DNA of 59,994 nucleotides, taken from the NCBI GenBank assembly GCA_945870505.1, contig CAMBSN010000006.1, positions 1 through 59,994 of the forward strand, read 5' to 3'. Shown piece after piece: positions 4,584-37,601 of the stretch; the first letter of the stretch is position 1; each line of letters begins with the position of its first letter. The stretch is from Candidatus Kuenenia stuttgartensis (GTDB lineage Bacteria > Planctomycetota > Planctomycetia > Pirellulales > UBA1268). The notes beneath the pieces were generated by a model, which did not search any database, was not told the origin of the DNA, and saw only the letters and a list, made by a program, of their open reading frames with translations. The position numbers were made by a program, and so were the translations under genes.

Positions 4584-4650
4584 CCGGTTGCGGATCAGGA
4601 AGCCCAATCGCGTGAGCGATGGGGACATGCAGGCTACGTCGCGCTTGCTC

Positions 4651-4780: not shown

Positions 4781-4806
4781 TCGCTGAGTTCGTGTTCCGC
4801 TCGTAG

Positions 4807-19983: not shown

Positions 19984-20820
19984 ATGTCGTCCACCGAAAT
20001 CCAGCATTCCGAGTCCACCCGGCCGCCACTCGGTGTTGGTCGCGATGTGACCGGTCGGCTCGTTTTCCTTGGCACCGGCACGAGCACCGGGGTGCCGCTC
20101 GTCGGCTGCGGCTGCGAGACGTGCACCAGCGGCGATTCACGGGACGTGCGGACCCGGACGAGCGTCCTCCTCGGTCTTCCGGGCGGGCATCTGCTGATCG
20201 ACACCACGCCCGACCTCCGGAACCAGTTGCTTCGCGAACGGATCGGTCGGGTTGATGCCGTCCTCTACACGCACGATCACGTGGACCACGTCTACGGCCT
20301 TGATGACCTCCGGCCGCTCTGTTTTGCGACCGGTCGGTCGATTCCGCTGTATTGCGAGGAGCGGGTCGAGAACCGGATCCGCAAGGCCTTCGACTATGCC
20401 TTCGCGGCTGGCCCGCCCCTCGGCGGCGGCGTGCCCAAGGTGACCTTCGAAAGGATCTCGGCGACTCCGTTCGAAGTCTTGGGCAGCCGCATCACTCCGC
20501 TGCGGCTGCGGCACGGAGTGTTTGACGTGCTCGGCTTCCGGGTCGGAAACGTCGCCTACTGCACCGACACAAACGGTATTCCGGACGAAACCTGGCCGCT
20601 GCTGGAGGGGCTCGACGTCCTCGTGCTCGACTGCCTACGGGCCAATCGGCATCCGACGCACTTCAGCATCGATGAGGCATTGGCGGCTGCGGCCCAGGTG
20701 GGAGCGCGGCGGACGCTCTTTGTCCACATGGCCCACGACATCCGGCACGCTGAGATCGCAGCGACACTCCCGCCGGGCGTGGAACTGGCGGTCGACGGGC
20801 TGGAAGTGCCGCTCGCGTAA
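19984..20820 (+). CDS. PhnP-like metallo-beta-lactamase-fold phosphodiesterase
   Basis: 278 residues. GTGTSTGVPLVGCGCETC near residues 30-47 carries the cysteines typical of PhnP-like and lipoate-associated MBL hydrolases, and THDHVDHVYGLDDLRP (residues 96-111) is the HxHxDH dinuclear metal site. Later histidines lie in RHGVFDVLGF, NRHPTHFS and VHMAHD. PhnP hydrolyses cyclic ribose phosphates in phosphonate metabolism; no other phn gene is visible, so the substrate is uncertain. An unconserved stretch of about 24 residues precedes the domain. The 3' end is followed by a repeat cluster. Confidence 0.82.
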   Translation: MSSTEIQHSESTRPPLGVGRDVTGRLVFLGTGTSTGVPLVGCGCETCTSGDSRDVRTRTSVLLGLPGGHLLIDTTPDLRNQLLRERIGRVDAVLYTHDHVDHVYGLDDLRPLCFATGRSIPLYCEERVENRIRKAFDYAFAAGPPLGGGVPKVTFERISATPFEVLGSRITPLRLRHGVFDVLGFRVGNVAYCTDTNGIPDETWPLLEGLDVLVLDCLRANRHPTHFSIDEALAAAAQVGARRTLFVHMAHDIRHAEIAATLPPGVELAVDGLEVPLA

Positions 20821-20857
20821 GAGCGGTCACACGTGATCCCGCGGCTCTCCCCCGTAG

Positions 20858-20876
20858 CACAGGTTTTCAACCTGTG
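20858..20876. repeat. short palindrome, CACAGG family
   Basis: CACAGGTTTTCAACCTGTG, preceded by GTAG, in the convergent junction between the PhnP-like and hydrolase genes. It lies 25 bases left of the E2 element; a matching palindrome lies 17 bases to its right. Confidence 0.85.
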
Positions 20877-20901
20877 TGTCTTCACGTTTCGCAGTGGGCT
20901 C

Positions 20902-21031
20902 GGGGCTGCCCATGCCCATCGCCGGATGCTCACTCCGGGCATCCTGCCCTCCGTTCGCTCGATGCTTTCTCCGCTTCGCCATCGTGGCTCCGCGGAGAAA
21001 GCAACGCCGGCTCCCGGGCACGGGCAGCCCC
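20902..21031 (+). repeat. 130-bp terminal-inverted-repeat element, copy E2
   Basis: Ends are GGGGCTGCCC and its reverse complement, as in E1. The inner hairpin is GGGCA/TGCCC around TCC (20937-20949), different bases from E1 but still paired. A second, long stem pairs 20963-20974 with 20992-21003 (12 bp, no mismatch) and encloses GCCA/TGGC. The copy is bracketed by CACAGG-type palindromes on both sides, so the two repeat families form a compound unit here. Confidence 0.82.
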
Positions 21032-21048
21032 TCGCTGCTGCCCCGTAG

Positions 21049-21067
21049 CACAGGTTGTCAACCTGTG
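21049..21067. repeat. short palindrome, CACAGG family
   Basis: CACAGGTTGTCAACCTGTG preceded by GTAG, right-hand partner of the palindrome at 20858 around element E2, and 20 bases from the 3' end of the hydrolase gene. Confidence 0.85.
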
Positions 21068-21086
21068 TGCTTTCCACGAGCGGCGG

Positions 21087-21893
21087 TCACTCTGCGCCAG
21101 CTTTGGCGCGGTCGATCAGGAAGTCGACGAGTTCCTGGCATCGAAAAAAACCTTCCCACATCGAGTGCCCCTGGCCTTCGGCGACGACAAGCGTGACAAG
21201 GTTGCCCCGGCCGGCCGCCTCGTAGCGGTGCTTGAGCCTTGCTGAGTTGGGCTCGAGCGGCACGACCTTGTCGTCGTCGCCGTGGATAATCCAGAACGGC
21301 ACGCCGGCCTTCGCGGCCACGTCGATCCGCTCGATCGGACAGAGTGCGTCAGCCTGGGCCGCGAGATCCTCCGGCGAGAGTCCGTAGGCCGGCGCCGCCT
21401 TGTCGATCCCGGGGTAGGTTCGCCAGTCGTACACGGGATAGATGCAGCCTACGCCCGCGGTGAGTTCTGGATGGGCGATTGCCCACGAACTGGCCCACAG
21501 GCCGCCGCGGCTGCGGCCCAGAAACGCCGGCTTGGTCGCGTAGCCGCGGCGGACCATCTCGGCGTGGAGCGCCTCCATCGCCTTCATGCCCACGGGGCTG
21601 CCGTACGACTCGCCGGTGTCGATGCCCGCGACCGCGACCCCTGCCGCCGTGAACCGCTCGTGCATCCACTTCTCCGCGTCGTCGGGATACGCGGGCAGCG
21701 TCGGGCCATAGAGGATCCAGGGCTTCGGCCCGTTCGGCACGGCATCAGCGGCCGGCGTGAACACGAAGGCAGCCTTCCCTTCGACCGCAAACACCTCGCC
21801 TGGCACGACGAGTGTCTTCGTCGACTCCGCGGCGACGAGTGTCGCGGTCCAGAAGGAGGCGAGCAGCAGGGCCGGAATCAGTGGAAGACACAT
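21087..21893 (-). CDS. secreted alpha/beta hydrolase, prolyl-oligopeptidase-like
   Basis: 268 residues with a signal peptide (LIPALLLASFWTATLVAAES). The catalytic triad can be placed: Ser in GRSRGG, Asp in HGDDDKVVP, and His in GQGHSMWEG near the C-terminus. The GxSxGG elbow and the D/H spacing are those of the prolyl oligopeptidase/dienelactone hydrolase-like superfamily. It probably acts as an esterase or deacetylase outside the cytoplasm; planctomycetes have many such enzymes for polysaccharide deacylation, but no glycan genes adjoin it here. Confidence 0.78.
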   Translation of the reverse strand: MCLPLIPALLLASFWTATLVAAESTKTLVVPGEVFAVEGKAAFVFTPAADAVPNGPKPWILYGPTLPAYPDDAEKWMHERFTAAGVAVAGIDTGESYGSPVGMKAMEALHAEMVRRGYATKPAFLGRSRGGLWASSWAIAHPELTAGVGCIYPVYDWRTYPGIDKAAPAYGLSPEDLAAQADALCPIERIDVAAKAGVPFWIIHGDDDKVVPLEPNSARLKHRYEAAGRGNLVTLVVAEGQGHSMWEGFFRCQELVDFLIDRAKAGAE

Positions 21894-21947
21894 CGAAAGG
21901 CTCCTGGGCAGGTGGGCGGCGGGACGGGACGGCCGCCCGTGACGTCG

Positions 21948-23042
21948 TCATTCGGCAGGTTCATGAGACAGCGCGGCGAATCGCTCGAGCAGCGTCGCGG
22001 CCGCACGGCTGTCGATGGCGTGCTCGGCGAGGCCGCGGGCTGCGGGCTTGTCGGGGGCCCGGCCAGCGGCCCAGAGGACGGCCGCCGCGTTGAGCACCAC
22101 GACATCGCGGCGCGGCCCCCGGCCACCGCCGAGGACGTCGCGGATCGCCGCTGCGCTCTCCTCTGGGCCCGACACCTCCAGATCGGCCAGCGCCCGCGGC
22201 GTCGCCGTGGCCATTCCGAAGTCTTCCGGCGTCCATCGCGCGTGGGTTGTGGTGGCCGACGTCACGTCGATCACGTCGGTGGGCCCGAAGAGGCTCACCT
22301 CGTCGAATGCCCTTCCTGCTGCGTCATCGTCGTCCACATGGCCGGAGACGACGATCGCCCGCGCGGCGCCGAGGAGCCGGGCCGCCTCCGCCATCGGCTC
22401 GCGGGCCGCGGGCCGACCCACGCCGATCACCTGCACCGATGCACCCGCGGGATTGCAGAGGGGGCCTACGAGGTTGAAGACGGTGGGCCGTCCGAGCGAG
22501 CGGCGGAGCGGGCCAACGCGGGCCATCGCTGGATGATGCACAGGCGCCATGCAGAAGCAAAGCCCGACGTCGGTGAGGCAGCGGCCGCTCACCTCGGGCG
22601 GCGCATCGACCTTCACACCGAGCCGCTCGAGCACGTCGGCGGAACCGGTGCGGCTGGAGACGGCGCGGTTGCCGTGCTTGGCGACGGGCTGGCCAGCGGC
22701 AGCGACCACGATGCCGGCCGCGGTCGAGATGTTGAACGAGCCCGACCCGTCGCCGCCAGTGCCGCAGGTGTCGGCCACAAGGCCGCCGCGCCGCGGCACG
22801 GAAAGCATTCGCTCCCGGAGGGCCGAGGCGACGCCGGCGATCTCACCGGCCGATTCGCCGAGGTCGGCCAGTGCCAGCAGCCAGCCGCCAAAGGCGTCGA
22901 GATCGACCGTATCCGCGAGCACCGCATCAACCAATTCGCGAACGTCGCCCGGCGGTCGGCGGCTGCTCCGGCGGAGTTCCTCGGTCCAGCCCGCGACGTC
23001 GATGCGGCGCGAGCCGGACGGTGTGGCTGCTGGATCGCTCAT
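21948..23042 (-). CDS. trpD: anthranilate phosphoribosyltransferase
   Basis: Second step of tryptophan synthesis, joining anthranilate and PRPP. 364 residues; the start at 23042 is chosen because it gives normal length and the upstream extension reads into the neighbouring promoter region. Signature CGTGGDGSGSFNIST near residues 93-107 binds PRPP; KHGNRAVSSRTGSADVLE follows, then NLVGPLCNPA and a DE-type Mg site region. It stands alone, without other trp genes, as is common in planctomycetes. It diverges from the nucleoside hydrolase gene. Confidence 0.93.
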   Translation of the reverse strand: MSDPAATPSGSRRIDVAGWTEELRRSSRRPPGDVRELVDAVLADTVDLDAFGGWLLALADLGESAGEIAGVASALRERMLSVPRRGGLVADTCGTGGDGSGSFNISTAAGIVVAAAGQPVAKHGNRAVSSRTGSADVLERLGVKVDAPPEVSGRCLTDVGLCFCMAPVHHPAMARVGPLRRSLGRPTVFNLVGPLCNPAGASVQVIGVGRPAAREPMAEAARLLGAARAIVVSGHVDDDDAAGRAFDEVSLFGPTDVIDVTSATTTHARWTPEDFGMATATPRALADLEVSGPEESAAAIRDVLGGGRGPRRDVVVLNAAAVLWAAGRAPDKPAARGLAEHAIDSRAAATLLERFAALSHEPAE

Positions 23043-23193
23043 GGGAAACCGAGGCCGGCCGACCTCGTGGAACGCAGTTTGGGTACGATTGTCGCCAGAC
23101 CGCCCCACGGCGGCCGATGAACACGCCACAGCCTACCCGACGCCCCGACTCCCCGACGCACCAACTCCCCCACGCCCAAGGAGCACCGCTGCA

Positions 23194-24144
23194 GTGCCGC
23201 CGACCACGCCCCGCAAGGTCATCATTGACTGCGATCCCGGGATCGACGACGCCGCGGCGCTCGCGATGGCACTGTTCGACCCCCGGCTGGAGGTGGTGGC
23301 TGTCACGGCGGTGGGCGGGAGCGTGGGGCCCGAGCAGGCGACGTCCAACGTCCAGTCGGTGGTGTCATTTCTCGATCCGCCGCGGCTGCCCCGCCTCGGC
23401 GTCGCCCCCAGTGACACGGCGACCTTCGAGACGCCCCACGGCTTGCACGGGGCCGACGGGCTCGGTGGGGCCGAACTCCCCCGGGTGCAACTCCACGGTG
23501 GGCATCAGTCGGAGAAGGTGATCTGGGAGTGCATCAAGGCCCATCCTCGCGAGATCACGATTCTCGCTCTCGGTCCGCTCAGCAACGTGGCGCGGGTGTT
23601 CAAGCGGGATCCGTCGATCGTCGAACTCGTGGCTGGCCTCGTGATTTCCGGGGGTACGGCGCACGCCTCGGGCAATGCGTCGGCCGTGTCTGATTTCAAC
23701 TTCCTCGCCGACCCGCAGGCGGCGCGGCTCGTGATCCGCGAGCCGGTGAAGAAGACGCTCGTGCCGCTGGAGACGACGTCGCAGGTGCTGCTTGGCTTCG
23801 AGTTCCTCGACCAGCTACCCCGCGAGGTCTTCCGGGCGGGCCAACTGCTGCGGCGGATGCTCCCGCACGCCTTCCGCGCCCATCGCCAACTCCTCGGCAG
23901 CGAGGGGATCTGGCTGCACGACGTCGTCAGCCTCGTGGCCCTCACCAACCCCGAGCTCTTCGAGCGGACGACCGTGGCCGCCGACGTGGAGACCGCGGGC
24001 GATCTCACCGCCGGCATGCTCGTGGTCGATCGTCGTCAGACCAGTCCGTCGCGGCCGAACTGCGACCTACTCGTCGGCTGCGACGCGGCGGCCATTACCG
24101 ACTGCATCCTCCGCAGCTTCGCCTCCGCCGCCGCCGCCACGTAG
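23194..24144 (+). CDS. inosine/uridine-preferring nucleoside hydrolase family protein
   Basis: 316 residues from GTG 23194, chosen because AAGGAG lies 10 bases upstream and the calcium-site motif DCDPGIDDA then falls at residues 12-20, as in the family. The central ALGPLSNVA and the C-terminal HDVVSLVAL with its metal Asp are present. The enzymes cleave the N-glycosidic bond of nucleosides for base salvage. The stop codon TAG is part of the GTAG that begins the palindrome at 24145, so the repeat defines the last codon. Confidence 0.88.
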   Translation: MPPTTPRKVIIDCDPGIDDAAALAMALFDPRLEVVAVTAVGGSVGPEQATSNVQSVVSFLDPPRLPRLGVAPSDTATFETPHGLHGADGLGGAELPRVQLHGGHQSEKVIWECIKAHPREITILALGPLSNVARVFKRDPSIVELVAGLVISGGTAHASGNASAVSDFNFLADPQAARLVIREPVKKTLVPLETTSQVLLGFEFLDQLPREVFRAGQLLRRMLPHAFRAHRQLLGSEGIWLHDVVSLVALTNPELFERTTVAADVETAGDLTAGMLVVDRRQTSPSRPNCDLLVGCDAAAITDCILRSFASAAAAT

Positions 24145-24211
24145 GTGCAGGTTGTCAACCTGCACATGCCGCGCACGGGGGGCTGCTTCACCGCAGGTTA
24201 CCAACCTGCGG
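24145..24211. repeat. pair of short intergenic palindromes
   Basis: GTGCAGGTT/AACCTGCAC at 24145-24165 and CCGCAGGTT/AACCTGCGG at 24191-24211, spaced 46 bases start to start exactly as at 4807-4873. They fill the convergent junction between the nucleoside hydrolase and HtrA genes. Confidence 0.85.
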
Positions 24212-24232
24212 CTACGGTGACGGGCGCGGCCT

Positions 24233-25405
24233 TCACTCGAAGTCTTTTCGGCTCGCCACCTTCATTCGGATCGGCAGCCGTTCGCGGTTGCGGAAGATGG
24301 TTAGTTCTACAACGCTGTCGAGCGGCGTCATGCCCACCATGCTCATGAGGTGGTCGTCATCCTCGACCGGACGCCCCTCGTATTCCAGGATCACGTCGTC
24401 GGGGTGGATGCCCGCCACGTCTGCCGGCGCGCCCCGGGTGATCGTCTCCACGCGGGTGCCAACCGGACGCACCATGCCGAGGCGGTCGGCCTCGTGCTGC
24501 TCGAATTTCTTGTCGAGAGCCACGCCGAGATAGGCCCGTGGAACGGTGCCGTGCTCGATGAGTTGCTGGGCCACGAACATCACCATGGGGATGGGAATGG
24601 CGAACCCGATCCCCTCACTGCCGCCAGAGTTGCTGGCGATGCAGGTGTTGAGCCCCACCACCTCGCCGCGAAGGTTGACCAGCGGCCCGCCGCTGTTGCC
24701 GGGGTTGATCGCCGCGTCGGTCTGGATGAAGTCCTGAAACTTCACGTTGCCCTCGCCGAGTTCGAGGTCGCGGCGGCCCTTGGCCGACACGATGCCGAGC
24801 GTGACGGAATGCGAGAGGCCGAAAGGGCTGCCGATGGCGAGCACGGTGTCGCCGATCCGAATGGTGTCACCCTCCGCCAGCCGCGCCGGCTGGAGATCGT
24901 CTGCCTCGATGTCGAGTACGGCGATGTCGGTGCCCGGATCCGACCAGAGCCGAGTGGGGGTTAGTTCGCGGCCGTCATCGAGCCGGATCGTGATGTCTTC
25001 GAGCGTGGACCGATTGACGACGTGTCGGTTGGTGATGACCACCGTCAACCCGGCCATCTGGGCAATCACGCCGGAGCCGGCCTCGTTCTCGGTCGTCTTG
25101 CCGCTGCGCGGCCGCGCGAGGGGCTTGGTGGCGTCGATGTGCACAACGGCCGGCCGAAGCAGTTCGGTAAGCCGTCGCAGCTGCCGTCCCTGCGTCTCGA
25201 GCACCTCGGCGTCGCGGGCGGCCTGCTCGTAGAGCCGCTCCCGCTCGGCGGCCGGCATCCGGGGTGAACGCATTGGGTCGACCCGGCCGTCGCCGCGGAC
25301 GACGGCCGGCCCGACCGGGGTCAGCGGGGGCTCGTCGCCCACCGCGACGGGGGGCAGCAGCAGCGCGGCGGCAGGCAGGAGAACGAGTGAACAGCGTAGG
25401 ATCAT
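24233..25405 (-). CDS. HtrA/Deg-family serine protease with one PDZ domain
   Basis: 390 residues with a signal peptide (LVLLPAAALLLPPVAVGDE). The trypsin-like domain has His128 (TNRHVV), Asp160 (GTDIAVL) and Ser238 (NPGNSGGP); one PDZ domain follows from about residue 290 and contains AGIHPDDVILEYEGRPV. A single PDZ makes it DegS-like in layout. A predicted coiled segment of about 40 residues lies between signal and protease. Likely a periplasmic quality-control or signalling protease. Confidence 0.9.
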   Translation of the reverse strand: MILRCSLVLLPAAALLLPPVAVGDEPPLTPVGPAVVRGDGRVDPMRSPRMPAAERERLYEQAARDAEVLETQGRQLRRLTELLRPAVVHIDATKPLARPRSGKTTENEAGSGVIAQMAGLTVVITNRHVVNRSTLEDITIRLDDGRELTPTRLWSDPGTDIAVLDIEADDLQPARLAEGDTIRIGDTVLAIGSPFGLSHSVTLGIVSAKGRRDLELGEGNVKFQDFIQTDAAINPGNSGGPLVNLRGEVVGLNTCIASNSGGSEGIGFAIPIPMVMFVAQQLIEHGTVPRAYLGVALDKKFEQHEADRLGMVRPVGTRVETITRGAPADVAGIHPDDVILEYEGRPVEDDDHLMSMVGMTPLDSVVELTIFRNRERLPIRMKVASRKDFE

Positions 25406-25463
25406 GAAACCACCGCATAAGGCAGGAGGCCCGTGGGCTTCCGCAGCATATCCCGGTTTGGTT

Positions 25464-25901
25464 TCAGTTTTCCAGTTCGCTGCTCATCGTCTCCTCGCCG
25501 GCCTCCTCCTCACCGAAGCCGCGGTGGAAGGACGCCGACTCGCCCGACCGCTCGAGCTCCCGCTGGCAGTCGATGCACATCGTCGCATATGGTAGCGCAT
25601 GGAGGCGTGCCATCGGGATCCGGCCGCCGCACACCTCGCACTGGCCATACTTGCCGATCTTCAATCGTTCGAGCGCGTTCTCGATATTGGCGAGTTCGCG
25701 GCTCTCGACCTCGGCAAGCTGCGAACTGATCTCGTCCTGCGCCGAATCGTAGGCCGCGTCGATCACGTCGCCCGGCGATTCGCTGCGGAGTTCCTTGAGC
25801 AGCGTGAGGTCACCGGCCAGCGCACTCCGCAACGCATCCCGCCGCTTGACGAGGATTGCCCGCAGATTGAGAAGCGAATCTTTGCGTGCCATGGTTGCCA
25901 T
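25464..25901 (-). CDS. DksA/TraR-type zinc-finger protein
   Basis: 145 residues. A helical coiled-coil-like N-terminal half is followed by the four-cysteine zinc finger C88-x2-C91 and C109-x2-C112, with the family's ERLKIGKYGQCEVCG lead-in. DksA-like proteins bind the RNA polymerase secondary channel and alter promoter choice with ppGpp. The N-terminus lacks the full E. coli DksA sequence and the tip aspartates are not certain, so the role as a true DksA is inference. The upstream gap of about 160 bases to the SOUL gene shows no gene. Confidence 0.82.
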   Translation of the reverse strand: MATMARKDSLLNLRAILVKRRDALRSALAGDLTLLKELRSESPGDVIDAAYDSAQDEISSQLAEVESRELANIENALERLKIGKYGQCEVCGGRIPMARLHALPYATMCIDCQRELERSGESASFHRGFGEEEAGEETMSSELEN

Positions 25902-26064
25902 TCCTTGCCCCGGAGGGGCGTTGCCGAACCGGCCGGATTCCCCCGGCCGCAGCCAATACTACGGGGCTTGGGGAAGGATAGTTCACGCTGGGGAAATCGG
26001 CACGACTGGGAGGGTAAATACAGCGAAACGCGGTTTTGACGCTCGGCGGAAGCGGGGGAAAGTT

Positions 26065-26694
26065 TTACGGCTGCTTCACTGGGGTCGCCGGTGTGATCGG
26101 AAGCTGGACCTCGGCATATTGAAAGACTCCCGGCACGAAGGGGCTGTTGTAGGCCAGCGTCCGCGGCGGGCCGGCGGCGGCCCACTCGGGGTGCGCGCCG
26201 AGCCAGGTCTCGAGTTTTGCCGTGAATTCGGCGAGCCGCTCCTCGCGGTAGGAACCGCGGACGCCGAGCGAGATGACGGTGGTCTCGGGAACGTCCTCCA
26301 CGACCACGTTCGGGTCGTCCGGATCGGGGCCAGGTGTGCCGGTGGCGGCGGACCCGTAGAGGAAGGCCATCGACTCGGTCCGTGGGGCTGCCCGACCGCC
26401 ATCGGCCACGGCCATTTCCATCTCCACGGGTGCCGTCATCGCGATCTCATTCCGCTTGATGTGGCGGAAGAGCTTCATGAACGAGCCGTCGTTGCCGGGG
26501 CCGCCGGAGCGGACGCGGGCCAGGCGGTGGGCGGGATAGGTCTTGGTGATCACCTCGCCGACGGGGCCGGGGCCCGGAAAGCCCTCGGGGAGTTTGGCCT
26601 CAGAGATCATCATCGGCGTGCGCACGGCGTCCTCCGCGAAGGCGGTCAAAGAGAGGGCGAGGGTGACAGCGGCGAGCGGCAACACGAATCGCAT
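26065..26694 (-). CDS. SOUL-family haem-binding protein, exported
   Basis: 209 residues with a signal peptide (LPLAAVTLALSLTAFAED). The SOUL/HBP fold is indicated by YPAHRLARV, FMKLFRHIKRNEIAMTAPV (the conserved hydrophobic helix and MTAPV), and the C-terminal WLGAHPEW and YNSPFVPG. The family binds tetrapyrroles, though bacterial roles are poorly known. ATG 26694 has a strong GGAGGAG 8 bases upstream and fits the signal peptide; a longer frame to 26766 runs into the palindrome. Confidence 0.85.
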   Translation of the reverse strand: MRFVLPLAAVTLALSLTAFAEDAVRTPMMISEAKLPEGFPGPGPVGEVITKTYPAHRLARVRSGGPGNDGSFMKLFRHIKRNEIAMTAPVEMEMAVADGGRAAPRTESMAFLYGSAATGTPGPDPDDPNVVVEDVPETTVISLGVRGSYREERLAEFTAKLETWLGAHPEWAAAGPPRTLAYNSPFVPGVFQYAEVQLPITPATPVKQP

Positions 26695-26765
26695 GGAAAG
26701 GCTCCTCCGAGGGGAATCATAGAACGGGCCGCCGGGGGTTGCCCAGAAAGCCCGACGCCGGTGCA

Positions 26766-26786
26766 CCGCAGGTTACCAACCTGCGG
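26766..26786. repeat. short palindrome, CCGCAGG family
   Basis: CCGCAGGTT/AACCTGCGG around ACC, followed by CTAC. The CTA is the reverse complement of the decarboxylase stop codon, so that minus-strand gene terminates inside the repeat. Confidence 0.85.
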
Positions 26787-28232
26787 CTACGTGGAGAGAT
26801 GCGTTACCTGCCGCCAGGTGGCCAGGACGTCGCCGCGGGTCGTCATCGCCCCGCCGATCGCGAGGCGGATGGCGAGACGGCCTCCGATGCGGGCATGCGT
26901 CAGGAACACCTGCCCTGTGGCGTTGACGCGGTCGAGCAGGGACCGCGTGGCGTCGTCGCCGGCCCGGAGCGCGAAGCAGACGAGCGAGAGGTTCGGCGGG
27001 AGGAGGAGGTCGAACCGGGGATCGGCCGCAACCAGGTTTGCAAACTCGCCCGCCCAGGCGACGTGGCGACGGATGTGGTCGCGGAGGGCCTCGGCGCCGA
27101 GCATCCGCAGCGTCATCCAGAGTTTGAGGCCGCGGAACCGGCGGCCGAGCGGTACCTGCCAGTCGCAGTAGTCAATCACGCTGCCGGTGTCGCTCGCCCG
27201 GTTTCGGAGGTAGTCGGGCTTCATGGAAAGGGCGGCGATGAGGGCCGCCCGGTCGGCCACCCAGAGCGCGTGGCAGTCAAAGTTTACGAGCAGCCACTTG
27301 TGCGGGTTGAAGCCCCAGCTGTCGGCTGATTCGGCACCGGCCACGAGCGGCCCGCGAAACTCGGGGCAGATCGCCGCCGCACCCGCCCACGCGGCATCGA
27401 CGTGCAACCACGCGGCATGCCTCGCGGCGACCGCCGCGATGTCGTCCACCGGGTCGATGGCGCCTGAGGCCGTCGTACCCACCGTCGCGGCCACGAAGAA
27501 CGGGCGCCGGCCCGCGGCGGCGTCGGCAGCCATCGCGGAGGTGAGCGCGGCGACGTCCATCCGCCCGGTGGCATCGACGGGAATCCTTCGCAGCCAGTCA
27601 CGGCCGATACCGACGATCCCGGCCGCCTTCTCCACGCTCGAATGGGCATCGACACTCGCGTAGGCCACGAGCGGGCGGTCGTGCTGCGCGAGGCCCGCGC
27701 GATTGGTGGCGAGCGCCGTCGCCCGCTCGCGGGCCGCGACCAGAGCCACGAGCACGCCGCTCGACGCGGAATCCTGGAGCACGCCGCCGCCCGTGCCGCT
27801 GCTCGCGAACCGCTCGGGCAGGCCGAGCAGGTCACGGAGCCAGTCGAGGACGTGCGTCTCCAGTTCCGTGCAGGCGGGCGACGTAGCCCAGAGCATGCCC
27901 TGCACGCCGAGCCCGGCGGAGAGCAGCTCGCCGAGGATCGACGGCCCGCTGGAGCTGGCGGGGAAGTAGCCGAAGAAGGCGGGATGCTGCCAGTGCAGGA
28001 GCCCCGGCGCGATCACCCGGTCGAGGTCATGAAGCACATCGGCGAGCGACTCGGCCGCTTCGGGCGGCCGCGGTGGCAGGTGCGATCGCACGTCGCCCGG
28101 CGACACGGCAGGCGAGACCGGCCGCGATGCGAGCGACGCCCAGTAGTCGGCGATCCAGTCGACGACCGCGCGGCCTTCCTCGCGAAATCTCTCGGGATCG
28201 AAAACGGGCTGTTGTTCAGGCATGGGTGGCAT
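26787..28232 (-). CDS. PLP-dependent aromatic-L-amino-acid-type decarboxylase
   Basis: Group II decarboxylase of 481 residues. The PLP lysine is K312 in NPHKWLL; H197 (DAHSSVEKA) is the ring-stacking histidine and D279 in HVDAAWAG pairs with the pyridine nitrogen. HPAFFGYFPASSS and the GLLHWQHP lead-in are typical of aromatic amino acid/tyrosine decarboxylases. Likely substrate an aromatic amino acid (inference). Two ATGs (28232, 28223) are equally good starts. The stop TAG lies in the palindrome's GTAG; another palindrome lies 9 bases before the start. Confidence 0.88.
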   Translation of the reverse strand: MPPMPEQQPVFDPERFREEGRAVVDWIADYWASLASRPVSPAVSPGDVRSHLPPRPPEAAESLADVLHDLDRVIAPGLLHWQHPAFFGYFPASSSGPSILGELLSAGLGVQGMLWATSPACTELETHVLDWLRDLLGLPERFASSGTGGGVLQDSASSGVLVALVAARERATALATNRAGLAQHDRPLVAYASVDAHSSVEKAAGIVGIGRDWLRRIPVDATGRMDVAALTSAMAADAAAGRRPFFVAATVGTTASGAIDPVDDIAAVAARHAAWLHVDAAWAGAAAICPEFRGPLVAGAESADSWGFNPHKWLLVNFDCHALWVADRAALIAALSMKPDYLRNRASDTGSVIDYCDWQVPLGRRFRGLKLWMTLRMLGAEALRDHIRRHVAWAGEFANLVAADPRFDLLLPPNLSLVCFALRAGDDATRSLLDRVNATGQVFLTHARIGGRLAIRLAIGGAMTTRGDVLATWRQVTHLST

Positions 28233-28240
28233 TTAATGGT

Positions 28241-28323
28241 GTGCAGGTTGCCAACCTGTACCTACGGATGTGGTCATGCGACCTCAGGTTTTTAGACTGC
28301 GGTGCACGGGTTGCAAACCTGTG
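28241..28323. repeat. two degenerate palindromes between decarboxylase and YjbQ genes
   Basis: 28241-28261 (GTGCAGGTT/AACCTGTAC, one arm mutated) and 28305-28323 (CACGGGTTGCAAACCTGTG, imperfect). The CTAC after the second supplies the YjbQ stop codon on the minus strand. The degenerate arms suggest older copies than those elsewhere. Confidence 0.7.
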
Positions 28324-28746
28324 CTACAAGTCGCCGTGGGCGGTGATCACGAGCCGCCTTGGGCCGCCGCGGTCACGGTGCTCGCAGAGATAGATGCCCT
28401 GCCAGGTGCCCAGCCGCAGCTGGCCAGCGGCGATCGGGATCGTCAGCGAACTGCCGATCATCGAGCACTTCACATGCGCCGGCATGTCATCGGGACCTTC
28501 GCAGGTGTGTACGTAGGGGAGGTGCTCGGGGGCGATCGTATCAAACGCCATCTCCAGGTCGCGGGGCACGTCGGGGTCGGCGTTCTCGTTGATCGAGAGG
28601 CTGGCCGAGGCGTGCTGGATGAAGACGTGGAGCAGGCCGACGCGAAACGCCGGCATCTCGCGGAAGGCAGCCTCGACCTCGGGCGTGATCAGGTGGAAGC
28701 CGCGGCGTCGCGGGGCGAGCCGCAGATCGATCTGGAACCAGGGCAT
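28324..28746 (-). CDS. UPF0047/YjbQ-family protein
   Basis: 140 residues from ATG 28746, which overlaps the stop of the upstream propeller gene (TGATG). The family signature is visible: GLLHVFIQHASASLSINENADPDV split by the conserved HxSA-like core, then HVKCSMIGSS and LGTWQGIYLCEHRDR. YjbQ proteins are small trimeric proteins with a conserved His/Asp/Glu pocket; some have weak thiamine-phosphate-synthase activity, but the in vivo role is unsettled. It is the last gene of the ALDH/Fe-ADH operon. Confidence 0.88.
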   Translation of the reverse strand: MPWFQIDLRLAPRRRGFHLITPEVEAAFREMPAFRVGLLHVFIQHASASLSINENADPDVPRDLEMAFDTIAPEHLPYVHTCEGPDDMPAHVKCSMIGSSLTIPIAAGQLRLGTWQGIYLCEHRDRGGPRRLVITAHGDL

Positions 28747-29939
28747 CAGTCGCCGCTCCGGAAGCACCAGAGGATGCCGTCGTCGGACGCGAGCACCATG
28801 CGACCCGCGGCCACGGCAGCGCCGGCACCAAACCCGCCGCCGGCGTCAAACTCCCATGCTGGCTCGCCGCTGGCAGCATCGAGGGCCGCGATCCTGCCTG
28901 CCGCATCGGCGATCATCGCGACGGATCGGGCCGGTGCCCCATTCGGGCCTGTGGCCACGATCACCGCAGGAGAAGCCTCGACACGGCCCCGCATCGGCCG
29001 CCGCCAGGCCCGCGAGCCATCGGCCGCGGCAAACGCCTCGACCGCCTTGCCACGGAAGCCGACGATCGCGAGCCCGTCGGCGATCGCCGCGCTCGAGCGA
29101 TAGGACTGGCCTGCCGCGGCCGCCGCCGCCCGCCAGACTTCCTTGCTTGCCACCACGTCGATGGCGAAGAACACGCCCCCTTCCGTGCCGAAGAACACGC
29201 GGTCGCCAAGCACCGCCGGTGTTGTACCGGTCGGCCCGTCGATCGGCACCGCTGCCTGCTCAGCCCCAGTGAGGGCGTCGAGCACGTGCAACGTGCCGTC
29301 GCAGCCGGCGAGCAACACCCGGTCCCCCGCGGAGGTTCTGGCGACGGTCGGTGAGCAGCGGATCTGGTCGGCGATCGCATGCTTCCAGAGCAGCGTTCCA
29401 TCGGCGAGCGCCAGGCACGAGAGCGACGCGTCCTGCGAGCCGACGAGCACGCGGGGGCCGTCGGCCGCTTCGAGGATCGTTGGTCCGCCCGAAATCTCTC
29501 CATTCGTTTCGTGCGTCCAGCGGAGATCACCGGTGGCGGCGTCAAAGGCCCGTACGAGGCCGCCGTCGTCGCCGACCACCACGAGCCGGGCGTCCCCGGC
29601 CGCGCCGATTGCCGCCGCCGACGTGAACCCTGCGTCCTTGGCCGCGAACGACCAGCGGTCGGTGCCGTCGGCAAGCGACACGGCCCGAAACGTGCCGTCG
29701 AGATCGCCGAGGTAGACCACGCCGTCGGCGACGACGGGCACCGCGCCAAATGCCGTGCCGTCGAACTCACGATGCCACGCCTCGACGAGCGGCAGCGCAA
29801 ACGTGGCTGCCGACCGGCCGGTTCCCCCGAGGCAGCCCCGGGCCATTGGCCAGGCCTCGGCAGGGGCGACGTTGGGATCATTCCCGAGGGCGACGGTCGC
29901 GAAGACGATGGCGAGCAGGGCGGTGCCGACGGTGGTCAT
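28746..29939 (-). CDS. exported PQQ-type beta-propeller protein
   Basis: 397 residues with a signal peptide (VGTALLAIVFATVALGND). Repeated blades carry the pattern VYLGDLDGTFRAVSLADGTDRW, FDAATGDLRWTHE, LLAGCDGTLHVLDALTG and similar, six or seven times, as in PQQ_2/BamB-like eight-bladed propellers. No PQQ-ligand set of true quinoprotein dehydrogenases is evident, so it is probably a binding or scaffold protein. Coupled at both ends: ATGA overlap with the iron alcohol dehydrogenase and TGATG with YjbQ. Confidence 0.8.
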   Translation of the reverse strand: MTTVGTALLAIVFATVALGNDPNVAPAEAWPMARGCLGGTGRSAATFALPLVEAWHREFDGTAFGAVPVVADGVVYLGDLDGTFRAVSLADGTDRWSFAAKDAGFTSAAAIGAAGDARLVVVGDDGGLVRAFDAATGDLRWTHETNGEISGGPTILEAADGPRVLVGSQDASLSCLALADGTLLWKHAIADQIRCSPTVARTSAGDRVLLAGCDGTLHVLDALTGAEQAAVPIDGPTGTTPAVLGDRVFFGTEGGVFFAIDVVASKEVWRAAAAAAGQSYRSSAAIADGLAIVGFRGKAVEAFAAADGSRAWRRPMRGRVEASPAVIVATGPNGAPARSVAMIADAAGRIAALDAASGEPAWEFDAGGGFGAGAAVAAGRMVLASDDGILWCFRSGD

Positions 29940-31105
29940 CGCGCCGCCTCGTAGAGCGCTGCCAGGTCGGTGGCCGCGACCGGCCGCGGATTGAAGCCAC
30001 CGGTCCACTGGGAGGCAGCGGCAGCGGCGAGGGCGGAGACGTCCGGGGCGTCGATGCCGCATCCATGAAGCGAGGTCTGCAGCCGCGCCGTGGCGAGGAG
30101 CCCGGTCAGCCAGTCGGCGAGCGTGGTGCCAGCCTCGCTGGCGGTGGCCGCGATTCCTACGTCGGCGAGCAGGTTGGCATAGGCTGATCCGCAGGCCGCG
30201 GCGTTGAATCGCACGACGTGCGGCAGCATCACCCCCACGGCCTGCCCGTGGACCACGTGGTGGGCCGCGGTGAGCGGGTTGGCGAGCGCGTGGGCCGCGC
30301 CGAGCATGGCGTTCTCGATGGCGAAGCCGGCCAGCGCCGCGCCAAACTGCACCGCCGATCGAGCATCGATGCTGCCGCCGCCGCTGACCACGTGTGGCAG
30401 GTTGGCGGCGAGCAGCCGCCAGGCCTCGCGGGAGAATGTCCGCGAGGCGGGAGTAGCCGCGGTGCTGACGTGGCTTTCAACGGCGTGGGCGAGGGCATCG
30501 ACACCGGTGAGCGCAGCGAGCGAGAGTGGCTGCGTGAGCGTGAGGTTGACGTCGAGGATCGCGACCCGAAAGGCGGCACGCGGGTCGCCGCAGGCCATCT
30601 TCATGCCCGTCTCATCGTCGGTGATCAGCGCAAACGACTGGGTCTCGCTTCCGGTACCGGCGGTTGTCGGCACCGCGATCGAGGGCAGCATCGGCCCGGT
30701 CGCCGTGCCGCGGCCGCGGTAGTCGCGCATCCGGCCGCCGCAGGAATGCAGGAAGTTGATCCCCTTGGCGCAGTCCATGGAACTGCCGCCGCCGAGGCCG
30801 ACGAGCAGGTCGGGCCGGAACGCCCGCGCCAGCGCCGTGCCCGCCTCGACCTCCGATGACGATGGATTCTCGGTGAATGCCGAGAACACCTCGGTGGCGA
30901 GGCCTGCGTCGCAGAGCGACTCGATTCCGGCCGCGGTGTGCCCGCACTCCACGATACCGCGGTCGCTTGTGACCAGCGCCCGCGTCGCGCCGAGGTCACG
31001 GGCGATCTCGCCGAGTCGGCGGATCGCGCCCGGGCCGACCACGAGCCGCGTGGCCGCCGTGAAGCTGAACGTCAGGGGGTCGGGGGAAGACACGCGGACG
31101 CTCAC
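29936..31105 (-). CDS. iron-containing alcohol dehydrogenase
   Basis: Group III alcohol dehydrogenase of 389 residues. NAD(P)-binding LGGGSSMDCAKGINFL, then PTTAGTGSE, and iron ligands in ILDVNLT (Asp), ALAHAVESH (His) and the AAHHVVHGQAVGVMLPH block. It interconverts an alcohol and an aldehyde. GTG at 31105 overlaps the ALDH stop (GTGA), so it is translated directly after ALDH; a longer frame upstream lies inside ALDH in another phase and is rejected. Pairing with ALDH suggests aldehyde made by one enzyme is passed to the other. Confidence 0.9.
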   Translation of the reverse strand: MSVRVSSPDPLTFSFTAATRLVVGPGAIRRLGEIARDLGATRALVTSDRGIVECGHTAAGIESLCDAGLATEVFSAFTENPSSSEVEAGTALARAFRPDLLVGLGGGSSMDCAKGINFLHSCGGRMRDYRGRGTATGPMLPSIAVPTTAGTGSETQSFALITDDETGMKMACGDPRAAFRVAILDVNLTLTQPLSLAALTGVDALAHAVESHVSTAATPASRTFSREAWRLLAANLPHVVSGGGSIDARSAVQFGAALAGFAIENAMLGAAHALANPLTAAHHVVHGQAVGVMLPHVVRFNAAACGSAYANLLADVGIAATASEAGTTLADWLTGLLATARLQTSLHGCGIDAPDVSALAAAAASQWTGGFNPRPVAATDLAALYEAAR

Positions 31106-32526
31106 CCCGCCGCCGCCGGCATCTGCAGGGCCCGCGACCGATAGAGGAAGTCGATGATGTTGCCCTCGTGCGGCTGCAGCCAGTCGAGCTTCGTGGTCGG
31201 GATGGCACCGAAGTTGAGCCGATCGATGTGCGTGCACTCCATGAGCCGGGAGCGGAAGGCCGCGTCGTTCGTAAGCGCCGAGCAGACGAGTGTGGGGCCG
31301 ATTGACTCGAGCATCCGCTCCTGTGGGCACTCGACCACGCTCACGAACGGAAACATGTATTCCGCCTTCGCGATCTCGGGCTCCGGAGTTGCGCAGTGGA
31401 CGACGGTGGGTCGGAGCCAGCCGCAGCGTTCGCCCTCCACGAACCGGTCGCCATAGTCGCCGGTGGCGTGGGTGACGCCGGGGGCCTTCAGCCCGGCCTC
31501 GATCTGGCCCCAGATTGCCTTGGCGGCACCGGGAATCGTGAAGGCGGCGAGCTTCGCGTCGGGATCGTCCGGCAACTTTACCTCTGTCGGGCCGAGCCGC
31601 TCCGAGAGGGCCGCCGCGATGGCCCGGGTGTGCCGGCTGGCGTAGATCGCCGAGGCGTTGATGCAGCCGCGGCCACTGTTGATCGCCACGCTTTCGCACA
31701 TCATGTCGAGATGGGCCGCCCAGTCGTCCACGCAATCGTCGCCGAGGATGATCTTCGAGAACCCGGGGCCGTGGACCTGCACGTCGGGATTGCTGCGATA
31801 CTGCTCGACGGTCTTGGCGCTGCCGAAGATCATGCTGCGACGGCAGCCGGTGAGGACACCGGCGCCGACGTCGGTGGCCCCCGGATAGAGACCGATCGCC
31901 TCGGCGGGGATGCCGGCCTCGACCATCGCGGCGGCCATGCGATAGGGCGTCCAGGGTTCCTGGCTGCCCGGCTTCATCACGAGCCCCACGCCCAACGCGA
32001 TCACCGGCAGCCAGAGCGTGTGCACGCCGGGCGAGTTGGAGGGGAGCACGAGGCCGAGCACGGGCGACTGTGCCTGATAGCTCACCGTCACGCCGCGATG
32101 CTCGGTGCCGTGGCCGCTCCAGAGAATCCGCGTGTCGAGGCCGCGGGAGAGGGCGTCGAGGATGCGGTCCATATTCGAGAGCACGAACATGTTCTTCTGC
32201 ATGTTAGCGCGGCAGAGGCTCTCGGGCAGGCCCGTCGTCGCCGACTGCTGCTTCACAAAGTCGTCAGGCGACTGCTTCGTGTCGCCGACGGTGACGGTCC
32301 CGTTGGCGTAGAGATTACCCGCCGTCTGCAGTCGCTCGACGATCTCCTCGGGATCGATCGCCAGCAGGGCCTTGCGGGCCTGCGCCGCCTTCTGCAGGTC
32401 GCGGCCCACGATGGCGCCGCCCACCTGGCTCACCTCGGCGACGGGCTGGCCGGTGAGAAAGTGGACGAGCGTCTCGCGCTCGATCGACTCGTAGGGTTTG
32501 CCGAAACGCCAGGCTGGGAGATGCAT
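31102..32526 (-). CDS. ALDH-superfamily acyl reductase-like protein (LuxC-like role)
   Basis: 474 residues from ATG 32526. Aldehyde dehydrogenase fold: LVLPSNSPGVHTLWLP (cofactor Asn region), FGSAKTVEQY (Rossmann loop) and the catalytic Cys in NSGRGCINAS. The general-base Glu of hydrolytic ALDHs (ELGGK position) is replaced by VHGPGFSKIIL, with no acid. Loss of that Glu is typical of CoA-acylating and LuxC-type acyl reductases, so reduction of an activated acyl group to aldehyde is more likely than aldehyde oxidation (inference). An extended frame to 32679 reads into repeat element E3 and is not real. Confidence 0.82.
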   Translation of the reverse strand: MHLPAWRFGKPYESIERETLVHFLTGQPVAEVSQVGGAIVGRDLQKAAQARKALLAIDPEEIVERLQTAGNLYANGTVTVGDTKQSPDDFVKQQSATTGLPESLCRANMQKNMFVLSNMDRILDALSRGLDTRILWSGHGTEHRGVTVSYQAQSPVLGLVLPSNSPGVHTLWLPVIALGVGLVMKPGSQEPWTPYRMAAAMVEAGIPAEAIGLYPGATDVGAGVLTGCRRSMIFGSAKTVEQYRSNPDVQVHGPGFSKIILGDDCVDDWAAHLDMMCESVAINSGRGCINASAIYASRHTRAIAAALSERLGPTEVKLPDDPDAKLAAFTIPGAAKAIWGQIEAGLKAPGVTHATGDYGDRFVEGERCGWLRPTVVHCATPEPEIAKAEYMFPFVSVVECPQERMLESIGPTLVCSALTNDAAFRSRLMECTHIDRLNFGAIPTTKLDWLQPHEGNIIDFLYRSRALQMPAAAG

Positions 32527-32598
32527 GGGTGTGGACCTTGGCTGGGAGAGCACGTGGTTTGTCGTTGAGATTCTAGCCGATTCGCCCAACCCGGCTTC

Positions 32599-32729
32599 GG
32601 GGCTGCCCGTGCCGCTCGCCGGACGTTCGCGTCGGCCCTCCAGGCCTCCGCTCTCTGCATGTCCGCTTCGCTTCGCCATCCATGGCTTTGCTCGCTCCCA
32701 TAGCCCGGCTCCACGGCACGGGCAGCCCC
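32599..32729 (+). repeat. 131-bp terminal-inverted-repeat element, copy E3
   Basis: GGGGCTGCCCGTGCC and GGCACGGGCAGCCCC ends. The inner hairpin GGCC/GGCC (32634-32646) belongs to the E1 subfamily. The left border reads on into CAACCCGGCTTC, which recurs inverted beyond the right border of E4, so E3 and E4 are arranged head-to-head. Confidence 0.78.
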
Positions 32730-32770
32730 GAGCCTTGCCTCTAGAGAGCTATAGAACCGATTGCGGCGAG

Positions 32771-32910
32771 GCTTCGGGCTATCCGTTTTCCGAGAGCCGG
32801 CGTTGCTGACCAGCGCAGCCATGGATGGCGAAGCGCAGTCAGCATCGAGAGAGCGGAGCCCAGGATGGGCGCAGCGAACGTCCGGCGACGGGGAACGAGT
32901 AGCCCGAAGC
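32771..32910 (-). repeat. 140-bp terminal-inverted-repeat element, copy E4 (inverted, diverged)
   Basis: Perfect 10-bp ends GCTTCGGGCT/AGCCCGAAGC. In the minus orientation it aligns with E2 and E5. Its inner hairpin is GCCCA/TGGGC around GGA (32858-32870), a third base combination that still pairs. A second stem pairs GCTGAC (32805) with GTCAGC (32838), GCGC with GCGC, and GCCAT with ATGGC. The remaining bases to 32998 hold no gene; a GC-rich tail repeats pieces of the element border. Confidence 0.75.
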
Positions 32911-32998
32911 CGGGTTGCGCGAACGCCCGGCGAACCTCGGCTTCGCCCACGCCGGGCTCCAGCGAAGCAAGGCAGGATGCCGAAGGCTTCGCGTGAAC

Positions 32999-34132: not shown

Positions 34133-34191
34133 GGGCGGATTCCTGGAGGGGGGAGGGCGCCGCGACGGAGGGTGCGGCAGGTCGTAGACGA

Positions 34192-34662
34192 TCAGCCGTC
34201 CGCAGGCGTTTCGGGCTGCGGCAGCGGTGTGCCGAGTTGTGCAAAGAGTTGGAGCACGCCATTGAAGTGGGCGAGGCGAGGGCCGTAGCGATCGATGAAC
34301 TCCCCAAGGGCGTACTCGCTGTCGGAGAAGTCGTCGGCGTTGTCGGCGGCCTCCTGGGCGAGGCTCGACAGGAACTCGGTGTGCACCTTGGAGAGCGACT
34401 CCGCGGCATGGCGGCATGCCTTGGCGAGTTGTGGATTGGCCTCTTTCCAGGCCTTCAGTTCCGCCATTCGCTGTCGCTGCTGCTGCGACACCTGGTTGAC
34501 CAGTTCGACGAGCAACTCGTTCGACCTGTGCTGCGACAGCACGAGGTCACGGAGCAATCGGTTCGTCTCGGCCAGATCACCGCTGACAGCCTGACGATTT
34601 CCCGCGGCGACCGTGCCGGCCGAGATGTCGAACTGGCTGAAGATCGGCGGAACGTCGCTCAT
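34192..34662 (-). CDS. helical hypothetical protein
   Basis: 156 residues, rich in Gln/Glu/Leu and probably a coiled coil from about residue 25 to 105 (ETNRLLRDLVLSQHRSNELL and following). No signal peptide or membrane segment. I do not recognise the family. It lies 59 bases upstream of the LuxE-like gene on the same strand and may be the first gene of that operon. Confidence 0.65.
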   Translation of the reverse strand: MSDVPPIFSQFDISAGTVAAGNRQAVSGDLAETNRLLRDLVLSQHRSNELLVELVNQVSQQQRQRMAELKAWKEANPQLAKACRHAAESLSKVHTEFLSSLAQEAADNADDFSDSEYALGEFIDRYGPRLAHFNGVLQLFAQLGTPLPQPETPADG

Positions 34663-34939
34663 GAATGTCCCATCCTGAGGGGATGCGGGGTCGTACGCTT
34701 CCGCACCAGACTCTTATCGTAGACGCACGAGGGCCTGTTTTCCACGGCTCGACCGCCGTCGCCGGCACCATCGGCAGGGTTTGCCCAGATTGGCAGCCGC
34801 TTCCGAGCCCTTGAATCAGCGGGTCGTCGGCCCGTTGGACTGCGGCTGTTCAAGTGGACGGCGGGGACGCCCGATGCATGGGAAGCCTCGCGCGGCGCCA
34901 GGGAAGGCGGTCGCGGCGGGGCGAGGGGGCGAGGCGGGC
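34663..34939. other. gap without recognisable gene
   Basis: Divergent region between the helical hypothetical protein and the gene before the SNF2 ATPase, so it should hold promoters for both. No copy of either repeat family and no clear promoter consensus. The open frame of the right-hand gene extends to 34781 through this stretch, but the added residues are low-complexity. Confidence 0.4.
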
Positions 34940-35452: not shown

Positions 35453-35496
35453 CGTTCTCAGCCGCTCTTCGGTGGCATGGAACGAACAGGCATGGC

Positions 35497-37254: not shown

Positions 37255-37288
37255 CGATGCTGGACGGGCTCCCGCCTCCCGCTCGTCG

Positions 37289-37344: not shown

Positions 37345-37369
37345 TGCCTTCCTGGGCTACCTCCCGCTC

Positions 37370-37499: not shown

Positions 37500-37515
37500 T
37501 CGCTGCCTCTCGTAG

Positions 37516-37578: not shown

Positions 37579-37601
37579 CAAACCCCCGACAGCTGATTCG
37601 G

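Follow-up and report, generated by a model that had tools for sequence, protein, structure and literature searches.

The window, a 59,994-nucleotide stretch of DNA that constitutes contig 6 of a 3.35-Mb draft Planctomycetes genome (G000, 87% complete), carries at positions 20902-21031 a 130-bp element with inverted ends and an internal hairpin. This locus raises the question of whether the element represents decayed transposon ends or is maintained as a folded nucleic acid, and, in the latter case, which molecule folds and what recognizes it. From the letters of five copies alone, an initial annotation had read the paired changes in the hairpin as a sign that a folded form, either RNA or single-stranded DNA, is under selection.

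Copies in the window and the architecture of the fold

All five copies claimed in the initial annotation were recovered by both blastn and a covariance model (E-values of 6e-19 to 3e-26). With the 130-bp copy as the query, blastn placed E1 at 4651-4780 (+), E2 at 20902-21031 (+), E3 at 32599-32729 (+), E5 at 37370-37499 (+), and a partial, inverted E4 at 32790-32892. The corresponding matches of covariance model R1 were located at 4645-4785 (E1, E 3.4e-21), 20896-21036 (E2, E 4.4e-25), 32592-32734 (E3, E 6.2e-19), and 37364-37504 (E5, E 8.0e-24), all with the folded strand on the (-) strand, and at 32770-32912 (E4, E 2.6e-26), where the folded strand is (+), inverted relative to the other four, and the basal stem is re-paired.

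The family alignment comprised 249 unique copies of 120-155 nt out of 263 full-length matches, of which 92 came from the own genome, 47 from the genomes of relatives, and 110 from named records. The family model has 142 positions and 49 pairs with one branch point and two arms, namely a three-way junction. Not the strand read initially but its complement folds, with GGA triloops and with internal loops of the GNA/GNA and tandem GA types. The fixed TCC loop described by the initial annotation is thus present on the strand that was read, but the folded strand has GGA in its place, and each copy carries two hairpins with such tips rather than the single one claimed, the second tip of E2 being TCG. 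Likewise, the inverted ends do exist, but not as a separate feature, since they form the basal stem of the single fold, which consists of 18 pairs and is extended by two further pairs outwards across a tandem GA.

In E2, the basal stem is formed by GGGGCTGCCCATGCCC at 20902-20917 and its partner GGGCACGGGCAGCCCC at 21016-21031, and the inner stem of the junction, 5 bp situated between the basal stem and the two arms, by GCCGG at 20921-20925 and CCGGC at 21007-21011. Arm B is built in the order of 2 pairs, tandem GA, 2 pairs, GNA/GNA, 5 pairs, and GGA triloop, and spans 20928-20958 (-) in E2, including hairpin H1, its GNA/GNA internal loop, and the tandem GA below. Arm A, at 20960-21006 (-), is composed of H2 with approximately 6-12 pairs, 2 pairs, GNA/GNA, H3 with 4 pairs, and GGA triloop, H2 and H3 of E2 being located at 20963-20974/20992-21003 and 20978-20981/20985-20988, respectively. 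Both arms share a common tip design, GC-GNA-stem-GGA-stem-GNA-GC, i.e., 2 bp, GNA/GNA, 4-5 bp, and GGA triloop. The H1 stems had been quoted correctly as GGCCT/AGGCC in E1, GGGCA/TGCCC in E2 and E5 (GGGCA-TCC-TGCCC on the + strand and GGGCA-GGA-TGCCC on the folded strand of E2), GCCCA/TGGGC in E4, and, with 4 of 5 pairs, GGCCC/AGGCC in E3, and the second stem of E2 was indeed perfect over 12 bp (TGCTTTCTCCGC/GCGGAGAAAGCA). E1 and E3 represent a subtype in which much of this long second stem (H2) is unpaired; together with other copies, this subtype has T-C at columns 70/105 in 22 of the 249 rows.

The folded strand of E2 gave -52.4 kcal/mol as DNA (z -8.0 versus dinucleotide shuffles) and -98.6 kcal/mol as RNA (z -10.5), and the minimum-energy folds under both models contained the stems and arms derived from covariation. 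The folded strand (+) of E4 gave a z of -7.4 as DNA. The loop and linker columns were mostly near-invariant across the 249 copies, i.e., conserved beyond what pairing alone preserves, which lent further weight to the claim that the fold is under selection. All four bases were present at the N columns of the GNA loops (40, 56, 81, and 95), and a single base occupied at least 97% of the flanking columns 80, 82, 94, and 96 and at least 89% of columns 39, 41, 55, and 57. The G and A of the internal loops may form sheared pairs; sheared G·A pairs are motifs known from both RNA and DNA. A possible further pairing, between linker columns 31-34 and 108-110, was rejected, since column 108 hardly varies and the pairing consequently has no covariation support. 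Eight full-length matches measured 154-157 nt, and in the four inspected (G000:C12:22406-22573, G000:C125:4536-4703, G000:C4 about 74941, and G015:C32 about 15266) another palindrome, GGGCACCGATCCGCCGCAGGCGGATTGGTCG, replaced the H3 tip.

Covariation and the folding strand

Among 61 diverse copies, standard pairs occupied 94.7% of 2959 cells, and both sides had changed in 37 of the 49 pairs as compared with a shuffled mean of 20.7. Double-change cells numbered 349 versus 95.5 after shuffling, and the covariation score was 0.352 as against 0.129 for shuffled pairs and 0.026-0.064 when the columns were slid by one to three. RNAalifold, run with no input structure, predicted 41 pairs, every one of which was among the 49 proposed.

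A tree of the 249 copies, on which parsimony placed 2368 changes, was further used to score column pairs with our own script, a home-made analogue of R-scape, against two tree-based nulls of 60 alignments each, in which the changes were moved either to other columns or to other branches. Seven column pairs had E < 0.05 under both nulls. Six of them lay within H1, H2, and H3, namely 44-52 in H1 of arm B, with a score of 422 versus null maxima of 181 and 212, and 68-107, 71-104, 72-103, 73-102, and 84-92 in arm A; the seventh, 34-62, was absent from the first proposed structure and is located at the base of arm B. In the same 249 copies, no pair of the basal stem (helix 1) reached E 0.05 in both tree nulls, the best being 21-121 with E 0.05 and 0.1, and both-side changes were seen in 19 of its 20 pairs among the 61 copies. 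The inner stem (helix 2) was near-invariant, with 1197 of 1232 cells Watson-Crick and no pair with both-side changes among the 61 copies, and hence derives no support from covariation. On a smaller scale, the copies of four genomes of one genus (G119, G225, G137, and G198) share an almost uniform backbone and vary at the third H1 pair, which is G-C, C-G, or A-T with few mismatches, and also at the N sites. With seven pairs beating both tree nulls and the controls of the 61-copy set exceeded, these results supported the proposal that the paired changes reflect selection for a fold of RNA or of single-stranded DNA; the outcome that would have spoken against it, a lack of significant covariation among many copies, was not seen in the 249 copies by the home-made tree-null test. 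It appears that the fold itself, in single-stranded DNA or in RNA, is the conserved object while its letters change.

As for which strand folds, the mismatches in the basal stem comprised 318 A·C cells on the strand read initially, which correspond to U·G or T·G on the complement, versus 42 G·T cells. The inferred events over all stems led from Watson-Crick pairs to A·C, a wobble on the folded strand, 261 times and to G·T 65 times, and the wobble events in the basal stem alone numbered 181 versus 37. Plain mutational bias does not account for this asymmetry, since basal-stem letters off the column majority were G to A in 291 cells and C to T in a similar number (248), and unmatched C to T was rare. 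The unpaired columns (G to A in 144 of 1742 cells and C to T in 105 of 4391, or 39 and 98 events) are no clean control of mutation, as most of the G columns among them are free N sites. RNAalifold gave -45.4 kcal/mol for the folded strand versus -15.0 kcal/mol for the other, and the GGA strand folded better in all five window copies, under DNA and RNA models alike. The wobble asymmetry in combination with the G·A internal loops thus identified the GGA strand as the folding strand, and the constraint falls on the fold of one strand, as in IS200/IS605-type elements.

Distribution, orientation and turnover

The covariance model found at least 150 matches in the own 3.35-Mb Planctomycetes genome and at least 147 in the relative G015 (147 of 150 candidates scored). 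A degenerate core pattern with up to 2 mismatches matched the genome 134 times and its reversed-pattern control never, and thus the element is not a product of chance. By BLAST, the other 21 same-genus genomes searched were all positive, as was 1 of 18 outside the genus. The order-wide search with the covariance model under stricter filters was positive in 44 of 246 genomes, all 44 belonging to the family of the window; at least six genomes of this family, G022, G023, G191, G205, G229, and G243, had no match under these filters, and the other families among the 246 genomes gave no match. The core pattern was also found in at least 112 stretches of named records; among the matches listed (80 of the 112), the titles name Planctomycetes metagenome-assembled genomes, the exceptions being one "bacterium", several titles with lake names, and some whose species labels are doubtful. 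Plasmids and phages searched by blastn and viral contigs searched with the exact pattern contained no match to the element. The initial annotation had known of no named family that matches it; in line with this, Rfam at the gathering score over the window gave no match to the element, Rfam at E up to 10 over five loci (L001, L002, L003, L005, and L016) gave nothing over it, and no paper on the family turned up in searches of mainly open-access literature.

Based on genes predicted with our own hexamer script, 223 of 292 copies could be classed by gap type (the others comprised 51 at the end of a stretch and 18 within a predicted gene). Convergent, tandem, and divergent gaps held 105, 108, and 10 of them, respectively; the same stretches contained 115, 177, and 78 intergenic gaps of these types with a length of 150-1500 bp. 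Within the tandem class, the GGA strand and the genes pointed the same way in 57 cases and opposite ways in 51, and the intactness of pairing was 0.955 versus 0.950 in the two orientations relative to genes (p 0.61).

Pairs of copies separated by 5 kb or more on one contig had the same orientation in 67 of 103 cases in the own genome (expected 52.1, p 0.0036) and in 70 of 95 in G015 (expected 48.9, p 0.0006). Among 164 copies in whose neighborhood both strands carry genes, the folded strand lay on the strand that is C-rich at third codon positions in 100, and the three sets pointed in the same direction each (G-rich/C-rich, 22/36, 7/16, and 35/48). The correlation of orientation with skew was -0.21 over 291 copies, and none of 5000 permutations was as strong. 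In 20 larger contigs, which were picked for many copies and some of them for like-oriented copies, with the skew not known when they were picked, the folded strand was on the C-rich strand for 63 of 88 copies, the contig-level correlation being -0.58 (permutation p 0.0076) and the clear exceptions being G015 C137 and G000 C16, the latter with a skew near zero. On these contigs the folded strand coincided with the majority-coding strand for 51 copies and not for the other 37, which leaves room for a weak link between orientation and genes.

The coding strand of the S10 regions was G-rich in 11 of 11 genomes and the rpoB strand had a positive total skew in 8 of 9, both within one genus, and the C-rich strand is therefore most likely the leading-strand template, provided that the S10 and rpoB operons lie on the leading strand as assumed. 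According to PMC6006769, IS200/IS605 elements act on the lagging-strand template. Since the folded strand is mostly on the C-rich strand, the orientation bias goes with replication, and its sign is opposite to that of IS200/IS605; in other words, taking the folded strand as the active one and S10 as leading, the active strand is not the one on the lagging-strand template. The opposite sign could reflect either a different mechanism or the weeding out of strong hairpins on the exposed lagging template.

Gaps bounded by the same genes differed in their content between genomes. Both neighbors of region A, which is bounded by genes that end at 20820 and 21087, were found in five genomes. The own genome has one copy there, G015 has two others of a different subtype, and G004, G021, and G009, in which the gaps measure only about 19-50 bp, have no copy. 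The gap between the genes at 35497-37254 and 37602-38492 holds a copy in the own genome, G005, and G021 and none in G014, and E5 differs from the same-site copy in G005 at 2 of 128 sites. When both flanks of 21 own copies were found together in G015, the element was there in 17 and absent in 4. Twenty same-place comparisons (17 with G015 and 3 with G005) included 10 with a like-oriented copy and a similarity of at least 90%, 2 with only an opposite-orientation copy, and 8 at 72-86%; the last two groups, which may be independent insertions or conversions, were left out of the site counts.

The site counts were made on the pairs at least 90% alike and 5 further cross-genome pairs, with one pair per site and 13 sites in all; out of another set of 24 pairs, 6 further cross-genome ones were considered and one of these was dropped at 88%, and most of the others were copies of one genome in larger composite repeats. 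Across the 13 sites, N positions had changed in 15 of 78 cases versus 69 of 1712 for all else (Fisher p 1.4e-6), where the N category was defined after the family alignment had been seen and the 90% rule lowers the overall rate, by itself with no favor to N sites. By class, the other changes comprised 46 of 1209 in stems, 1 of 78 in GGA loops, 5 of 217 at other unpaired positions, and 17 of 208 at G·A-mismatch positions. The counts were 17 of 90 versus 78 of 1974 with all 15 pairs of at least 90%, and 8 of 54 versus 29 of 1187 (p 1.1e-4) for 9 sites at a 95% threshold. At one shared site, the element was identical at 126 of 129 positions, and the 60-nt flanks matched only at 31 of 55 and 33 of 54. 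As non-N sites change more slowly than N sites and the element at one site differs far less than its flanks, settled copies appear to be under constraint, a part of which could be mimicked by gene conversion between copies.

Nature of the element and its relation to known systems

In our assessment, the element belongs with the dispersed structured repeats that occupy the intergenic DNA of bacteria, and its fold is unusually elaborate and well supported. Dispersed bacterial palindromes have usually been filed as small hairpins; the present element is larger and has one defined junction, and covariation of the kind used to recognize structured RNAs is here found in a dispersed repeat. It makes testable what recognizes folded single strands between genes, and when, and it offers a tangible molecular trait for study in a Planctomycetes family that was represented here by metagenome-assembled genomes alone.

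The reading we favor, to which we give about an even chance, is that of a non-autonomous REP/MITE-like repeat whose folded single-stranded DNA is recognized by a putative protein. The GGA strand of the intergenic repeat of approximately 140-150 nt would fold as a three-way junction with two like arms, the selected form being single-stranded DNA exposed at replication. A putative protein, acting in trans, would recognize the folded single strand, would spread copies in a REP/IS200-like or MITE-like manner, and probably still binds the settled copies. This reading rests on the observations that one strand folds, that replication skew rather than genes orients the copies, and that same-site copies differ between species. 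We infer from them a DNA molecule, recognition by a protein, protein-driven movement, and movement as single-stranded DNA; regarding DNA rather than RNA, it is the orientation data that make us lean in this direction. Several points weigh against it. The sign of the replication bias is opposite to the lagging-template rule of IS200/IS605, selection against strong lagging-template hairpins would yield the same sign, a purely selfish element is not expected to keep settled copies conserved, and the GGA tips are similar to the binding sites of CsrA, which lie in RNA. The genome stretches inspected contained no convincing autonomous longer copy or copy split around a gene, their one split pair having halves that overlap by 10 bases, and the empty gaps in relatives were too divergent to place an insertion junction, so that no target-site duplication was resolved. 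Alternatively, and in our view unlikely, the approximately 150 strand-polarized junctions could be kept by the host as single-stranded DNA binding sites read at replication, possibly by a CsrA-like or another reader of GGA-tip pairs; such a host-kept set would be a new class of chromosomal nucleic-acid address, not a mobile parasite.

The main rival is a transcribed RNA in which the two GGA hairpins bind a CsrA-type dimer, with the dispersed copies serving as a sponge or as 3'-UTR sites, a possibility that we take seriously while considering it less than probable. The motif CAGGATG, including the longer form CATGGATG with its extra base dropped, is found at the tip of H3 in 202 and of H1 in 137 of the 249 copies of the trimmed alignment, four CsrA matches in the own genome (G000:C14, C55, and C50) exceed the Pfam cut-off, and the wobble tolerance of the folded strand fits RNA. 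In the untrimmed copies, CA(N)GGANG occurs twice in 125, once in 109, and not at all in 15, and CAGGA(T/A/C)G twice in 88, once in 87, and not at all in 74 of the 249, and the copies that lack the motifs count against such a function. According to PMC7652899, the number of repeated CAGGA(U/A/C)G sequences in CsrB is about that of the CsrA subunits it binds (~18), the repeats being placed in the loops of hairpins or in further single-stranded stretches, and the dimeric CsrA is able to connect a pair of sites. Most selected CsrA ligands had up to 4 contiguous pairs (PMC7652899), in comparison with which the basal and H2 stems are long. Moreover, the element shows no orientation bias to genes in tandem gaps (57 versus 51) with pairing equal both ways, its orientation follows replication skew instead, and promoter-like together with terminator-like sites in 20001-40000 were no commoner than in shuffles. 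Indirect as it is, the missing link with the direction of transcription is the main argument against a CsrA-binding RNA. The CAGGA(U)G hairpin tips, mostly one or two per unit, and the CsrA genes in the genome are points of likeness to CsrB/RsmZ-type RNAs, from which the element differs in being a compact junction in at least 150 dispersed copies rather than one sRNA gene and in not being oriented to transcription. The TwoAYGGAY RNA motif of Rfam also has two hairpins with GGA tips, and resembles the element in this respect. This motif is reported from the human gut, gamma-Proteobacteria, and Clostridiales, and the five loci gave no Rfam match at E up to 10.

Template switching at quasi-palindromes, combined with gene conversion between copies and with no selection on the fold, would account for the seven changes in columns 39-58 at the G000 C30/G015 C32 site, by which an imperfect H1 arm became a longer perfect one, and conversion would account for the same-site variation falling on positions that are also variable across the family. 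These processes alone keep no unpaired letters, yet the loop and linker columns are mostly near-invariant in the 249 copies and the GGA-loop and other unpaired sites changed at 6 of 295 versus 15 of 78 N sites; since the wobble asymmetry between the strands is also left unexplained, we consider this mutational account quite unlikely. Ordinary MITEs of DDE transposases, in which function resides solely in the terminal inverted repeats and internal hairpins are passengers, resemble the element in being short, geneless, and present in many copies, with perfect or near-perfect inverted ends and sites that differ between species, and the rarity of copies in divergent gaps (10 of the 223 classed) would fit as well. 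The internal arms of the element are nevertheless conserved as structure no less strongly than the ends, with the strongest covariation inside them, the strand-specific wobble of the ends (181 versus 37) is unexpected for double-stranded transposase sites, and neither a target-site duplication nor a partner transposase was seen in the material analyzed, which makes a DDE-type MITE highly improbable. The 105 of 223 classed copies in convergent gaps, with only 10 in divergent ones, would be expected of a bidirectional terminator or mRNA 3'-end protector between convergent genes. This function is scarcely probable, as sites with a hairpin and T-run in 20001-40000 numbered 7 versus 8.1 in shuffles, a terminator stem has no need of a conserved three-way junction or of an internal fold specific to one strand, and some relatives have no element in the same gap.

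Returning to the favored folded-DNA repeat, among the closest relatives in kind are REP, BIME, and REPIN sequences, with which the element shares a high copy number, intergenic location, palindromic nature, and subfamilies with complementary stem changes. PMC3733652 describes REPs as hairpins of 20-40 bp, one end of which carries GTAG or CGTC as an unpaired tag, those of the GTAG type being thought to be moved by Y1 transposases, and reports them in the PVC group including Planctomycetes. In contrast to a single hairpin of 20-40 bp, the element is a 140-nt three-way junction with two GGA arms, and it has no unpaired GTAG or CGTC at the stem foot, where the majority consensus is GCGAG/CGAGC; by inspection, no CGTC is present in the consensus outside the inner junction. 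Like the non-autonomous elements derived from them, IS200/IS605 elements resemble it in strand-specific secondary structure and replication-correlated orientation. These known elements have subterminal hairpins with guide tetranucleotides (PMC6006769), whereas in the present element a single fold spans the whole unit and the orientation sign is opposite.

Two Y1_Tnp matches were found in the own genome, which is 87% complete, and both loci were rejected as partners because, by inspection, neither has the ends of the element. Locus L031 (G000:C13:26592-29936) encodes at 1180-1878 a Y1 (RAYT-like) transposase of 232 aa with inverted ends of the AAAAAGGTGCCAGCCACCAAATCTGGG type, unrelated to the element, and L032 (G000:C19:1-2554) contains, amid repeats of GCCCGAGGCCTTACGGCCTTCGGCTT, a Y1 transposase match too weak to reach the family cut-off.

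Other repeats are found in the vicinity. GTAG-tagged palindromes of the REP type, GTAGCACAGGTTNTCAACCTGTG(TG), occur in the window at 20845-21081, 37276-37548, 39944-39989, and 41903-42035 and often flank the element; those on either side of E2 lie at 20854-20876 (+) and 21045-21067 (+) and belong to repeat families D3/D4. Such a palindrome was located within 120 nt of the element in 78 of 108 own copies examined, and a regular expression matched 202 of them in 645 kb of element-holding stretches of the own genome. Another repeat, CCGGCTTCAGGAAGCCCAATCGCGTGAGCGATGGGG, adjoins element copies at about 4600-4640 of the window, where it is partial, and in L267 (region A of G015). Finally, two 60-nt palindromic units, arranged head-to-tail, 85% alike, and containing CGTAGCCGCAGGTTGGCAACCTGCGG, are located at 45186-45305 of the window.
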